A stretch of 32,760 bases of DNA from an uncultured Corynebacterium sp. (GTDB lineage Bacteria; Actinomycetota; Actinomycetes; Mycobacteriales; Mycobacteriaceae). The stretch spans positions 1 through 32,760 of the forward strand of contig NZ_CALZFS010000013.1 of assembly GCF_945649885.1 (NCBI RefSeq), in the 5' to 3' direction. The position numbers were made by a program, and so were the translations under genes. Of the stretch, positions 21,176 through 27,641 are shown piece after piece. Position 1 is the stretch's first letter. Each line of letters starts with the position of its first letter. A model generated the notes under the pieces. That model had not been told where the DNA came from and did not search any database. It saw only the letters and a list, made by a program, of their open reading frames with translations.

Positions 21176-22759
21176 GTGGCAGACATGGCCACACCAACAC
21201 ATTCTGAGGCAACCGGTTCCTTCTCCGAATTCAACCAGGAGGAGATGACCCGGCTTGCCGACAGCGTGCGCCAACTCAAACGCACCAACCAGGATTTAAG
21301 CTCCCGGAACTCCAAACTGGCGGACATGCTGAAATCATCACGCGACAAACTGTCCATGATGTACGAACAGCTCGAAGACATGTCCCAACCACCCTCGCTC
21401 TACGGAACCTACCTGGAAGCCTCCCGCGACGGCACCAGTGCCGAAATCTTCGCCGGAGGCAGGCGCATGCGAGTAGCCATGTCACCCATGCTCTGCGCCG
21501 GCGACCTCATGCCCGGCGTCCAGGTACGCCTCGGTGAAGGCAACCAGATCCTGGAGGCCTGCGAGTACGAACAAACCGGTGACCTGGCAACACTGATGGA
21601 AATGATCGGCCGTGACCGCGCCCTCATCTCTGACCGTTCCGGGGAAGAACGCGTGGTCAAACTCGCAGGCCCCCTGATGGACCGCACCCGCAAACTCCCA
21701 CGCCCCGGCGACACCCTCCTGGTTGACCGCCGCGCAGGCTACGCCTTCGAGAACATCCCCAAGACGGAGATCTCCAAGCTTGCCCTCGAAGAAGCCCCTG
21801 ATGTCTCCTATGCCGATATCGGTGGCCTGGATGATCAGATCGAACTGATCCAGGACGCAGTTGAACTGCCCTTCCTGCACCCGGAGATGTACCGTGCCTA
21901 TAAACTGCACCCACCCAAGGGCGTGCTGCTCTACGGACCTCCCGGTTGTGGCAAGACATTGATTGCCAAGGCGGTGGCGAACTCACTGTCCCAGCGCATC
22001 GGGGATGCCGGAACCTCCTACTTCATCAACGTCAAGGGACCGGAGCTGCTCAACAAGTACGTGGGCGAAACCGAACGCCAGATCCGTGTGATCTTTGAAC
22101 GCGCCCGCGAACTGGCAGGCGACGGCCGCCCCGTGATCATCTTCTTTGATGAGATGGAATCCATCTTCCGCACCCGCGGTTCAGGGGTGAGCTCCGATAT
22201 GGAAACCACCGTGGTCCCACAGCTGCTTGCTGAACTCGACGGTGTGGAGGACCTGTCCAATGTGATCGTCATCGGTGCCACCAACCGCGAGGAACTGATT
22301 GATCCCGCCATCCTGCGTCCGGGACGCCTGGACATCAAGATCCGCGTCCAACGCCCCAACCGCAAGGGATCCCGTGATATCTTCGCCCGCTACATCACCG
22401 ACACCATCCCGCTGGCAGTGGAGGTTGATGAGCTCATCGACAGCGCCGTGGAACATCTGTTCACCCCGCGGCCCTATGTACGCCTGACGCTTGTCGACAA
22501 CACCCAGGAAACCCTCAATTACCACGACTTCGTCTCCGGTGCGATGATCGCCAATATCGTCGACCGCGCCAAGAAAAGCGCCATCAAGGACCACATCGAG
22601 GGCAAGGGGATCGGCCTGACCATCGCCCACCTCACCGACGCCATCGACCAGGAGCACCAACAGAGCGAAGATCTACCCAATACCTCCAACCCGGATGAGT
22701 GGACCAAGATCATCGGCCGCCAGGGCAAGCGCGTCACCAACGCTGAAGTCGTGCAGTAG
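21176..22759 (+). CDS. arc: AAA ATPase forming ring-shaped complexes (ARC/Mpa)
   Basis: 527 aa; N-terminal coiled coil, OB-like region, Walker A GPPGCGKT, Walker [10 protein letters not shown]. The C-terminus EVVQ lacks a GQYL-type proteasome-docking motif. Confidence 0.96.
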
Positions 22760-22876
22760 CAGGGAAGCGCTGGGCGCGCGGTTAAAGAGAGCTTGTCGGC
22801 GTCCTTGTCCTGCACGCTGATTCAACGAAGTGTAAAGTTGTTTGCAAAACGTAAAGTCGCAGTTAGGGGCACTGAA

Positions 22877-23317
22877 GTGGATCAGACGAGCGCCCGTTTC
22901 TCCCATGCCGCAGCGCAGGCACGTGAGCGGAACCCGCGAGGAGTATCAAAGAAGGAAGGATGGCTCATCATCCTCCAGGCGAGCGCCAGTGTGGTGATGA
23001 TGTCGATCTTCTTCCAAGCACACAACTGGTACTGGGGTGGCATCCTCAATTTCGCCAGTGTCGGAGTATTCCTCATCCTCGCTGTCATGATGTCCACAAG
23101 GATGGCACGAGTGCGCGCAGTCCATCCCGCTGGGCATAGACGACGTCTCCTACTGGCAAGCCTTCTTCCGCTTTTAGCTATCGCCATCGGTGGGTGGTAC
23201 TGGACTTCCCATGCGCCACACAGTGGTTCCTGGCTGTTGACCACCTCAGTTGCCGTGCTCAGCTGTGTCCCGCTGGTGGTGCTTGGATATTCCCTGGTTG
23301 CCAGGGGCAACCGGTGA
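22877..23317 (+). CDS. Small integral membrane protein of unknown function
   Basis: GTG 22877 (MDQTSARFSHAAAQ...), 146 aa, about four hydrophobic segments; stop overlaps the downstream start. Confidence 0.75.
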   Translation: MDQTSARFSHAAAQARERNPRGVSKKEGWLIILQASASVVMMSIFFQAHNWYWGGILNFASVGVFLILAVMMSTRMARVRAVHPAGHRRRLLLASLLPLLAIAIGGWYWTSHAPHSGSWLLTTSVAVLSCVPLVVLGYSLVARGNR

Positions 23318-23619
23318 ATCTGTCCCAGGCACGCAAAGCTCTCGATGACATGATCCACTCTCCTGTGCGTTTCACTCTGGCAGCGGCCCTGAACTCGGTG
23401 GACTCCGCGGACTACCAAACGCTGAGGGAAGAACTGGGTGTCAGCTACTCTCTGCTCTCCAAACATGCAGGCATCTTGGAGGAGACAGGTTATCTGAAGA
23501 TCACGAAAGAATTTGATGGTCGCACCCAGATCACCAGGATGAGCCTGACCCGCCAGGGGAGAGAGGCATTTCAACAACACCTGACCGCCCTGGACAGAAT
23601 TGTGCAAGGCTTGACCTGA
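23314..23619 (+). CDS. Winged-helix (MarR/ArsR-like) transcriptional regulator
   Basis: 101 aa; MIHSPVRFTLAAALNSVDSADYQTLREELGVSYSLLSKHAGILEETGYLKITKEFDGRTQITRMSLTRQGREAF; GTGA overlap with the preceding gene. Confidence 0.88.
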   Translation: MNLSQARKALDDMIHSPVRFTLAAALNSVDSADYQTLREELGVSYSLLSKHAGILEETGYLKITKEFDGRTQITRMSLTRQGREAFQQHLTALDRIVQGLT

Positions 23620-23644
23620 TGCTGTGCTGAAACAGAAGGAGAAT

Positions 23645-24289
23645 ATGGGCATGGGACTGACACCGGAACAGATGCTGGAACTCCAGGAACTCAGTGAGGC
23701 TGCAACCCGCCTGGATAGAGATATTCAAGAACTCCTGCAGCAACGCCAGGAAATATCAGCCCGGGCTGGAAACCTGACCGCAATTCAGATGAGACAACGC
23801 CAGGATGAGATCAAGAAGGCATCACCGGCAACCTCTGACATGGACCTGGAACTGCTGTCCAGATGGCTCATCACCAAAGTCCAACGACTTGAGGATGAGA
23901 ACCTTATCGCACTCAAAGGCAGGTTCCGTGCCCCTCACATCATGCCCGGCATGGTCCCGATCATGATCAACGATGACGGCTACTGCACACAGCTGGTGAT
24001 CCATTTCGATGCAGACCACTTCCAGGGCATGGTCGGGGTCTCCCTGGAGGAAGAAGGCCGCCGCACACAAGCTGGATATGACGAAGAACTTCATGCCTCC
24101 ACAATCATCGTCGCTTTGATGGGTGAATTCCCGATCACCCTCGCAGAACAATGCCAACCAGGTGAAATCAAGTGGCTTTTTGACGCGCCGGGTTATCCCC
24201 ACCCTGATAACCTCGGTGCCCTGATTGCCATGGCGCAGGAAACGGGTGCCTGGCTGCACCCGCAGATTGATGAGATTCCACATTCCTGA
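23645..24289 (+). CDS. Hypothetical protein, tandem paralog 1 (coiled-coil N-terminus + uncharacterised C-terminal domain)
   Basis: ATG 23645 preceded by AAGGAGA SD; about 214 aa; high similarity to the next ORF (PGMVPIMINDDGYCTQLVIHFDADHFQGMVG ... DEIPHS). Confidence 0.8.
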   Translation: MGMGLTPEQMLELQELSEAATRLDRDIQELLQQRQEISARAGNLTAIQMRQRQDEIKKASPATSDMDLELLSRWLITKVQRLEDENLIALKGRFRAPHIMPGMVPIMINDDGYCTQLVIHFDADHFQGMVGVSLEEEGRRTQAGYDEELHASTIIVALMGEFPITLAEQCQPGEIKWLFDAPGYPHPDNLGALIAMAQETGAWLHPQIDEIPHS

Positions 24290-24318
24290 CGGATGTTTAA
24301 CCAAGAGACGGAAGAAGA

Positions 24319-24966
24319 GTGGGTATGAGGTTGACATCAATGCAGATGCAGGAACTCCATGAACTCGAAGAACGCGCTGCGTGGTTGGATGCTGAGATAC
24401 AGAAGCTTCTATTGGAACGTCAGCAGGTTTTCCAGCGGACAGAAGACTTGAATATGATCCGCTTGGAAGGGCTGCAATCCGAGAGGATGAAGGAAGCACC
24501 CACTACCTCCACGATGGAACTTGAAGTATTAGCACACTGGCTCACTGTCCAGGTTCAACGCCTGGAAGAGGAAAATCTTGGACGCACAGGCAGTGGTGTA
24601 CCCCGGAGCTACCGAGTCCTGCCGGGGATGGTTCCCATCATGGTCAATGATGACGGCTACTGCACACAGCTGGTGATCCATTTTGATACCGAGCAGTTTC
24701 AGGGCATGGTGGGCTTTTCTTTCGATGACCGTGGTGGTCAGGGGCAACCGGAATATGACGAGAAGGATCATGCCGAATTTCTCGGTTTACTGCTGATGGG
24801 CGAATACCCGGTTACTCTCGCAGAACAGTGCGAACCAGGTGAAATCAAATGGTTCCTTAAAACCGCCGGGTATGCACACCCAGACAATATCGGTGATCTC
24901 ATCACTGCAGGACAGACATTTGGTGCCTGGCTGCACCCACGGATCGAGGAAATTCCACATTCCTAG
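24319..24966 (+). CDS. Hypothetical protein, tandem paralog 2
   Basis: 215 aa; PGMVPIMVNDDGYCTQLVIHFDTEQFQGMVG, TLAEQCEPGEIKW, GAWLHPRIEEIPHS shared with paralog 1. Confidence 0.8.
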   Translation: MGMRLTSMQMQELHELEERAAWLDAEIQKLLLERQQVFQRTEDLNMIRLEGLQSERMKEAPTTSTMELEVLAHWLTVQVQRLEEENLGRTGSGVPRSYRVLPGMVPIMVNDDGYCTQLVIHFDTEQFQGMVGFSFDDRGGQGQPEYDEKDHAEFLGLLLMGEYPVTLAEQCEPGEIKWFLKTAGYAHPDNIGDLITAGQTFGAWLHPRIEEIPHS

Positions 24967-25009
24967 CCGATGCTCAGACAACCACTGTTAATCGCGATAG
25001 ATTCATAAC

Positions 25010-26029
25010 ATGCCATTGATCAGTGATCTGCTTGATGGCCCCAGGGGCCGGGACTTTCTCATGGAGGTGGCCCTTGCCTCAGAGGGGCTGGGTGGACCCT
25101 TATTTCAGGCCACCTGGCGGCTTAGTAGCTATATGCGGCGTAACGTAGACACATTCGGGATCAGCAGGAAGCACTCTGCGGAAGCTCTATCCAGGAAAGT
25201 GGCACCCCTGCTGGAACAGGTGCCCTTGGGGGAGATTACTCCCACACTGCTTTATGACGCTCTGGAAAGCCCTGTCTTCCGGGCGACCTACTGGGTATCA
25301 CCTAGTGATGAGAATGTGTTCCTGAGATCACAGTCTCTTAAGACCGGCCTGCGGCGTATTGCCCGTCATATTGCCAGCTCTGAGGTTGTATCTGACTGGT
25401 CTGATTCCTTCCAGCTGGATTGCCCGCAGGCTGCAGTGAGCTGGAAGGCACCAGGAGAAGAACCACCTGAACCACCAATTGAGGAGGCCTTGGAGAAGTG
25501 GCGGGAGGAGGCACGTACCGATAAGTTGTGGTGGTCCATGCCTCCGTGGCCGCTGATCGCCACCTCCGGGAAGCTCAAAGATGGCACTCCGGGGGCACTG
25601 CGTTTCCTTGAGGATGGTTTCGGATGGACAACCGGTTGGGTACGTGGAGCAACCGTGTCTCCTGATGCGAGGGTATTCACCATCCATGGATCGCGAGACT
25701 GGGCGCAGCTGTGCCAGCGCTTCCCACTGGATGTTACCGCCAGTAAGGGTGTGGACTGGCATGAGGTCACGGGATTTCCCCACAGGTGGGTGATGCCGGA
25801 CTATGTGGAGGTAGCTCAATATTATGATGGGGTCCATTTAAGTATGGCGGGTTATCTCGCCACTGTGGAAAGGGTCATCCCCGTAGACGATAAACGTGCC
25901 AGTATGCTGGCACGGTGGAACCCGGGGCAGACCTTCTGGTTCACCGATGCTGTGTCACTGGATGACACACCTGTGGTGTGGCGTGATCGCGGCGATCAGG
26001 ACTGGTGGCCTTGCGTCGATAAGCTTTAA
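25010..26029 (+). CDS. Hypothetical protein of unknown family
   Basis: 339-aa ORF filling the space between the paralogs and dop; coding-like composition, Trp-rich C-terminal half, no family recognised. Confidence 0.78.
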   Translation: MPLISDLLDGPRGRDFLMEVALASEGLGGPLFQATWRLSSYMRRNVDTFGISRKHSAEALSRKVAPLLEQVPLGEITPTLLYDALESPVFRATYWVSPSDENVFLRSQSLKTGLRRIARHIASSEVVSDWSDSFQLDCPQAAVSWKAPGEEPPEPPIEEALEKWREEARTDKLWWSMPPWPLIATSGKLKDGTPGALRFLEDGFGWTTGWVRGATVSPDARVFTIHGSRDWAQLCQRFPLDVTASKGVDWHEVTGFPHRWVMPDYVEVAQYYDGVHLSMAGYLATVERVIPVDDKRASMLARWNPGQTFWFTDAVSLDDTPVVWRDRGDQDWWPCVDKL

Positions 26030-26096
26030 GCGAGAGCCAGGCAGTGTCCCGCTAATCCCACCCCCAGCGTCCACCTCTGCCGATAAGCTGTCACCC

Positions 26097-27641
26097 ATGG
26101 AACGGTTCATCGGTACTGAGACCGAATACGGAATTTCAACACCCGGCCACAATCATGTGAGCCCGATCGTCACCTCCACCCATGCGGTGGTCTCCTATGC
26201 CAGTGCGCGTGGCTTCGGCCAGCACCGTGTGCGCTGGGATTTCACCGATGAATCCCCGCTGCGGGATAGTCGTGGCTTTGATCTGCGTCGTTATCACCAG
26301 GCTCCCGTGGTGGATCCCCATGCCATCGGGGTGGCCAATGTCTTTGTCACCAACGGTGCGCGTTTCTATGTTGATCACGCCCACCCGGAGTATTCCTCCC
26401 CGGAGGTCACCAACGCCTGGGATGCCATGGTCTATGACACCGCTGGTGATCATATCCTCATGCAGGCAGTAGCTGACACCGCCGCCTTCTCCAGTCAGGG
26501 TAAATCTGTACTCGATGGCCATGAACCCTGTCCCCCCTTGAAGATCTACAAGAACAATGTGGATGGCAAGGGTGCCAGCTACGGGGCCCATGAAAACTAC
26601 CGTTACCGCCGTGACATTGACTTTGATGTGATCGCCCAGGCACTGATCCCCTTCTTTGTAGCACGTCAGGTCATTATCGGTGCGGGACGTGTGGGACTGG
26701 GGCAGCAGGGGGACAAACCCGGTTTCCAGATCAGCCAGCGTGCTGACTATATCGAGCAGGAGATCTCCTTGGAGACCACCCTTAACCGTGGCATCATCAA
26801 CACCCGCGATGAACCCCACACCAATGCTGATAACTGGGGTCGCCTGCATGTGATCATCGGTGATGCGAACATGTCCCAGACCGCCAACCTGCTGAAATTC
26901 GGCATGACCACACTTGTCCTTGATGCTCTTGAAACCGGCTGTGACTTCACGGATCTGAAGCTGAAAAATGCTGTGAGTGAAGTCTCTCAGGTTTCCCATG
27001 ACCTGGAGCTCACCCATAAGCTCACCTTGGCAGATGCCCGCACCCTCACCGCAGTGGAGCTGCTGGGAATCTACCGCGATCGCATCATCACCACCCTCGC
27101 AGGTCAACTCACTGAGGTTGACCATAAGGTTCTGCAGCTGTGGGAAGAAGTCATGCTTCTTTTGGCAGAGGATCCTCTCAAGACCTCCCACCTGTTGGAC
27201 TGGACCGCCAAGTGGGCCCTGATCAAGTCCTTTGTGAGCCGGGGACTGGCCATTGATGATGCCAAGATCAAATTGGTGGACCTGCAGTACTCCGATATTG
27301 ATCCCGCACGCAGCCTCCACCATGCTCTGGTGGCCAAGGGGCGCATGAGGGAACTGGCTTCCCGTGAGGAGATCGCACATGCTGCCACCACGCCTCCCGT
27401 CGGATCCCGCGCCTATTTCCGGGGTGAGATGATTGCCCGCTTCCCAGAAAGTATTACAGCCGCCAACTGGGAATCACTCATCGTCAAAGATGCCACCGGC
27501 CGGGAATTCCGGATCCCCACCACGGAACTGGATGGACTCACCAAACAGGAAGTCGGGGGGATCCTCACCAACGCCACCACTGTGGACGAAGTTCTCAAGG
27601 CTTTGGAAGCAGGCGAACTCACACCTCTGCGAGAGCTCTGA
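26097..27641 (+). CDS. dop: Pup deamidase/depupylase
   Basis: 514 aa from ATG 26097; MERFIGTETEYGIS, RWDFTDESPLRDSRGFDLRR, NNVDGKGASYGAHENY, TRDEPHTNADNWGRLHVIIGDANMS. Confidence 0.97.
   Translation: MERFIGTETEYGISTPGHNHVSPIVTSTHAVVSYASARGFGQHRVRWDFTDESPLRDSRGFDLRRYHQAPVVDPHAIGVANVFVTNGARFYVDHAHPEYSSPEVTNAWDAMVYDTAGDHILMQAVADTAAFSSQGKSVLDGHEPCPPLKIYKNNVDGKGASYGAHENYRYRRDIDFDVIAQALIPFFVARQVIIGAGRVGLGQQGDKPGFQISQRADYIEQEISLETTLNRGIINTRDEPHTNADNWGRLHVIIGDANMSQTANLLKFGMTTLVLDALETGCDFTDLKLKNAVSEVSQVSHDLELTHKLTLADARTLTAVELLGIYRDRIITTLAGQLTEVDHKVLQLWEEVMLLLAEDPLKTSHLLDWTAKWALIKSFVSRGLAIDDAKIKLVDLQYSDIDPARSLHHALVAKGRMRELASREEIAHAATTPPVGSRAYFRGEMIARFPESITAANWESLIVKDATGREFRIPTTELDGLTKQEVGGILTNATTVDEVLKALEAGELTPLREL

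Follow-up and report, generated by a model that had tools for sequence, protein, structure and literature searches.

The five genes that separate arc from dop in the pupylation locus of a draft genome of Corynebacterium (contig C13 of G000, of which a stretch of 32,760 nucleotides, here called the window, was analysed) probably constitute a composite accessory insertion, which is under its own control and sits where the pupylation operon tolerates it, rather than an added part of the pupylation machinery. An earlier note on this DNA had offered two readings, accessory cargo or a functional addition to pupylation. The cargo reading is borne out, since the modules of the block recur away from arc and dop, the block is absent from one genome of the same clade (G144) and decayed in another (G044), and it has promoter-like elements of its own. 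The five-gene set was seen at no place other than the arc-dop junction, and its three sub-modules were found separately, unlinked to arc and dop.

Five same-strand genes do lie between arc and dop (22877-26029), as claimed previously, and the assignments of arc and dop are correct according to the NCBIfam models used for them (Table 1); the identity of arc across the six nearest relatives is 83-91%. The gap between the two measures 3.3 kb, compared with the insertion of about 3.2 kb that had been proposed. The hth gene indeed encodes a winged-helix regulator; it starts at the GTG at 23314 and not at 23194. The stop of mem and the start of hth overlap by 4 bp (GTGA), and the same overlap was observed in C. 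gallinarum and in G178, a genome that we take to be C. glutamicum. Comparison of the window species with C. gallinarum gave dN/dS values of 0.09-0.21 for all five block genes; since this indicates purifying selection, the genes are real and coding, and therefore do something useful. The statement that no integrase, IS or flanking direct repeat is present also held: family searches matched none of the five block proteins to a recombinase, and no flanking direct or boundary repeat was found at the block edges, hence the block does not show the combination of integrase or transposase and boundary repeats that marks an integrative mobile element. No tRNA genes were found in the window, and no Rfam families in three arc-dop loci.

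Table 1. Features of the arc-dop region, in window coordinates.
Feature	Position	Strand	Evidence or remark
arc (left flank; pupylation AAA ring ATPase)	21176..22759	+	TIGR03689, 774 bits
Candidate operator, two tandem imperfect palindromes 19 bp apart, upstream of mem	22822..22855	+	consensus TTTACGAATCGTAAA
mem, small membrane protein, 146 aa, GTG start	22877..23317	+	four predicted TM segments (hydropathy)
hth, HTH_34 winged-helix regulator, GTG start	23314..23619	+	PF13601, E=2.1e-25
parA, acidic, N-terminal coiled-coil helix, first of tandem pair	23645..24289	+	55-56% identical to parB
parB, tandem paralogue of parA	24319..24966	+	likelier start ATG 24325
Candidate leaderless promoter of p339, TAGATT	24992..25012	+	6 nt before ATG 25010
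p339, 339 aa, scattered actinobacterial family	25010..26029	+	family spread over genomes, genera and plasmids
Candidate leaderless promoter of dop, TAAGCT	26084..26099	+	7 nt before ATG 26097
dop (depupylase/deamidase; right flank)	26097..27641	+	TIGR03688, 771 bits

To place the split within the genus, dop and arc were located in 150 other Corynebacterium species in addition to the window, and the gap was measured wherever the two genes shared a contig, which was the case in 147 species. It was shorter than 200 bp in 116 of the 147 and 200-400 bp in 2, while no species fell between 400 and 1500 bp and 29 had a gap of 2-18 kb; given this distribution, the split in the window is well outside the norm. 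Besides the window and G044, 27 species are widely split, and in all 27, relatives of pdxR and pdxS stand between arc and dop (loci L148-L174), often together with pdxT, HNH-type proteins and transporters, one such set reaching 18 kb (all these names were assigned by eye from the sequences). Since the pdxR-pdxS species form one clade, apart from that of the window, the junction between arc and dop has been split on at least two occasions, and the cargo differs between them. In the nearest outgroups of the window clade arc and dop are 7-12 bp apart and the block is confined to that one small clade, thus confirming the lineage-specific insertion that had been proposed.

The window species, C. 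gallinarum, G044 and G144, the last of which we take to be C. efficiens, form this clade with 100% support, within which the branching order of the window species and G044 is less certain (76-84% support). All five genes are intact at arc-dop in only 2 of 242 species, namely the window species and C. gallinarum (L038, G172), whose block proteins are 79-89% identical to those of the window. The third species, G044, retains only decayed remnants, namely the final codons of a parA/B gene and a p339 with a frameshift, and the C. efficiens-like genome has 278 bp between arc and dop with no remnant of the block beyond the dop promoter box. Since one clade species is without the block and another has let it decay, the block appears dispensable, and the ancestor of the four species would already have carried it or had it in circulation.

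A serious alternative to loss in G144 is suggested by sequence composition and divergence, namely that recombination through the flanking arc and dop would have brought the block into C. gallinarum (or into the lineage of the window) at a late stage, G144 never having had it. C. gallinarum and G144 are close sisters in the tree, with 97.6% identity over arc, dop and pafA, and the block-less state of G144 fits a late transfer into C. gallinarum as well as a loss. What makes this alternative serious is that the block of C. gallinarum, with a GC content of 0.54 (0.52-0.56), fails to track its higher flanks (0.62-0.67), that dS of p339 is only 0.34 as compared to 0.61-1.07 for arc, pafA and dop, and that the p339-dop spacer is 95% identical; in the window, block and flanks are closer in GC. 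On the other hand, G044 has remnants of the same genes in the same place, indicating that the block is old in the clade, and the TAAGCT box of dop is common to all four species, indicating that the junction was already split. On balance we lean slightly against a recent arrival, which in any case concerns how the cargo got there and does not conflict with a composite accessory insertion.

The first module of the insertion is the mem-hth pair. The hth product is a member of HTH_34, matching PF13601 with 89.1 bits against a cut-off of 27 and over profile positions 1-80 of 80. Homologues of mem occur in 13 of 242 Corynebacterium genomes, and in at least nine other species mem is found with an adjacent hth relative away from arc and dop, in unrelated places. 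A palindrome resembling TTTACGAATCGTAAA was present just upstream of the mem homologue in the seven loci examined, being the best match in each stretch searched, and it is doubled with a 19-bp spacing in both the window and C. gallinarum. Since conservation covers the promoter region and ends beyond it, where the DNA is unrelated, the palindrome travels with the pair. Coupled genes (GTGA) and a conserved inverted repeat over the promoter are what an autoregulated pair would display, and the palindrome is probably an autoregulatory operator of the HTH_34 regulator.

The coiled-coil-fronted tandem paralogs, for which we use the labels parA and parB, belong to a very rare Corynebacterium family, as 6 of 242 Corynebacterium genomes contained relatives, in two cases as remnants only, and none was found in 249 other genomes sampled across the order. 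The p339 family is scattered: relatives were detected in 28 of 242 Corynebacterium genomes and in 16 of 68 genera of the order, and 16 plasmid records, most of them from Rhodococcus, carry relatives as well. The neighbourhoods of these relatives differ and are unrelated, and on plasmids integrase and transposase genes lie nearby. The window genome itself carries two further p339 relatives (G000:C15:16547-17580 and G000:C63:4968-5636), both with broken or split frames. Profile searches of Pfam, NCBIfam, PADLOC, PHROGs and PDB found no family for parA/B or p339, and a conjugation protein (TIGR03750) and chorismate mutase were rejected as identities for them, the matches being weak and below cut-offs. 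AlphaFold2 yielded low-confidence models from 4- and 2-sequence alignments (mean pLDDT 54 and 33), and the parB model is partly confident over its N-terminal helix alone (residues 7-56). The idea that p339 is an immunity protein beside toxins was dismissed, as no recurring neighbours bear it out. An uncharacterised family of about 125 aa was observed in G178 near a p339 relative and a parA/B remnant (L066 6693-7094 and L074 5165-5536).

The pupylation genes of C. glutamicum are part of an 11-gene operon, cg1683-cg1693, and in this species 33% of mRNAs are leaderless and the -10 motif is TAnnnT, located 3-11 nt before the start site (PMC3890552). Judged by the same TAnnnT rule (PMC3890552), p339 and dop each have their own candidate leaderless -10 box. 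The dop box and its 7-nt spacing are identical in all four clade species, the block-less G144 included, and the p339 box, which in the window precedes the ATG by 6 nt, is also present in G044 and, at a shifted position, in C. gallinarum; a TAnnnT box at such a distance is found at 3.7% of window positions. A simple sigma-70 scan showed no excess of promoters over chance, as expected for this promoter type. On this view mem-hth with parA/B, p339 and dop would be transcribed separately.

Two further observations were made around the flanking genes. A hairpin-like element with the core TTAACCCAGACATCRCTC lies after arc; the C. efficiens-like genome has two copies (L033 4279-4296 and 4402-4419, minus strand) and G044 has one (L032 6226-6243, minus strand). 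A search of seven genomes from the clade and its near outgroups showed no other copy, and being confined to the arc-dop locus in the clade it was rejected as a dispersed element. Moreover, the dop DNA of the window (26097-27641) and of C. gallinarum (L038) is 85% identical in the first half and 71% in the second, which suggests either recombination or relaxed constraint.

A functional addition to pupylation would have parA/B acting as adaptors or substrates of ARC, with the block co-expressed with arc and dop. The position and orientation of the block between these two genes fit such a role, as do the purifying selection on its genes and the coiled-coil N-terminal helix of the parB model, ARC receiving Pup by its own N-terminal coiled coil. 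However, parB showed no sequence similarity to ARC (BLASTP E=0.87), and none of the block proteins matched the family models of Pup, PafA/Dop, ARC or the proteasome. Linkage of the block genes with arc, dop, pup and pafA is not conserved either, the block being intact in 2 of 242 species and a remnant in a third, with relatives elsewhere unlinked. Since relatives of every module occur away from arc and dop, since the block is absent or decayed in two of the four clade species, all of which have retained arc, dop, pup and pafA, and since it has its own promoter-like elements, the functional addition put forward in the earlier note was not borne out and we consider it highly improbable. What speaks for a pupylation role is position; it is not supported, the pattern of presence and absence argues against it, and we infer that the block has none. 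A more elaborate version is a shade less probable still: as lineage-specific adaptors or decoys, parA/B would dock to the coiled coil of ARC and change the set of pupylated proteins that it unfolds, and the HTH/membrane pair would make their expression dependent on a signal from the envelope.

A mobile or defence island, whether an integrated element, a toxin-antitoxin system or an anti-phage system, would account for the patchy distribution and for the transposase and integrase genes that adjoin plasmid-borne p339 relatives. Nevertheless, integrase, transposase and bounding repeats were not found, PADLOC returned weak HTH matches only, without a defence model, and relatives of p339 or parB were found in 0 of 50,697 phage records, with neither family in viral contigs. 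We therefore regard an island as unlikely, although less so than a part in pupylation.

The composite accessory insertion remains the best explanation. According to this model, arc and dop would have been pulled apart in the ancestor of a small Corynebacterium group, and dop would have gained its own leaderless promoter. Module 1 would be the translationally coupled membrane protein/HTH_34 pair, probably self-regulated by binding of the regulator to the palindrome over the promoter of the pair; module 2, the duplicated acidic coiled-coil-fronted gene of a rare Corynebacterium family, would be read on from module 1; and module 3 would stand alone, as a member of an actinobacterial family that is scattered and in part carried on plasmids, with a candidate promoter of its own. 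The cargo would be dispensable and most likely a harmless passenger. Counting against this explanation, the block genes are under purifying selection, they are co-oriented with the pupylation genes and separated by short gaps so that read-through from arc is possible, no mobility gene or boundary repeat explains how the block arrived, and the lack of the block in G144 may reflect a late transfer into C. gallinarum instead of a loss.

These results halt an attractive but unsupported link of five uncharacterised genes to pupylation, and show that the genus has split the arc-dop junction, which in C. glutamicum lies within one operon, on at least two occasions. Furthermore, the candidate leaderless promoter of dop predicts for the window clade that expression of the unfoldase (ARC) is uncoupled from that of the depupylase.

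The mem-hth module resembles other pairs of an HTH_34 (PF13601) regulator and a small membrane protein in its full-length domain, its GTGA overlap with a 4-TM gene and its upstream palindrome. The pair at 187 kb of G178 encodes proteins 76% (hth) and 42% (mem) identical to those of the window, but it sits between cold-shock-like and methyltransferase-like genes (named by eye), whereas the window pair lies in the pupylation locus. The locus as a whole shares with the C. glutamicum pupylation operon the order arc, dop, pup, pafA, with flanking proteins 72-91% identical; in contrast, arc and dop are 7 bp apart in C. glutamicum, while in the window they are split by 3.3 kb and dop has a candidate leaderless promoter. 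A further parallel is the arc-pdxR-pdxS(T)-dop clade, where a multi-gene insertion likewise sits exactly at the arc-dop junction, although the cargo there consists of vitamin B6 synthesis genes with variable extras and the clade is a separate one.
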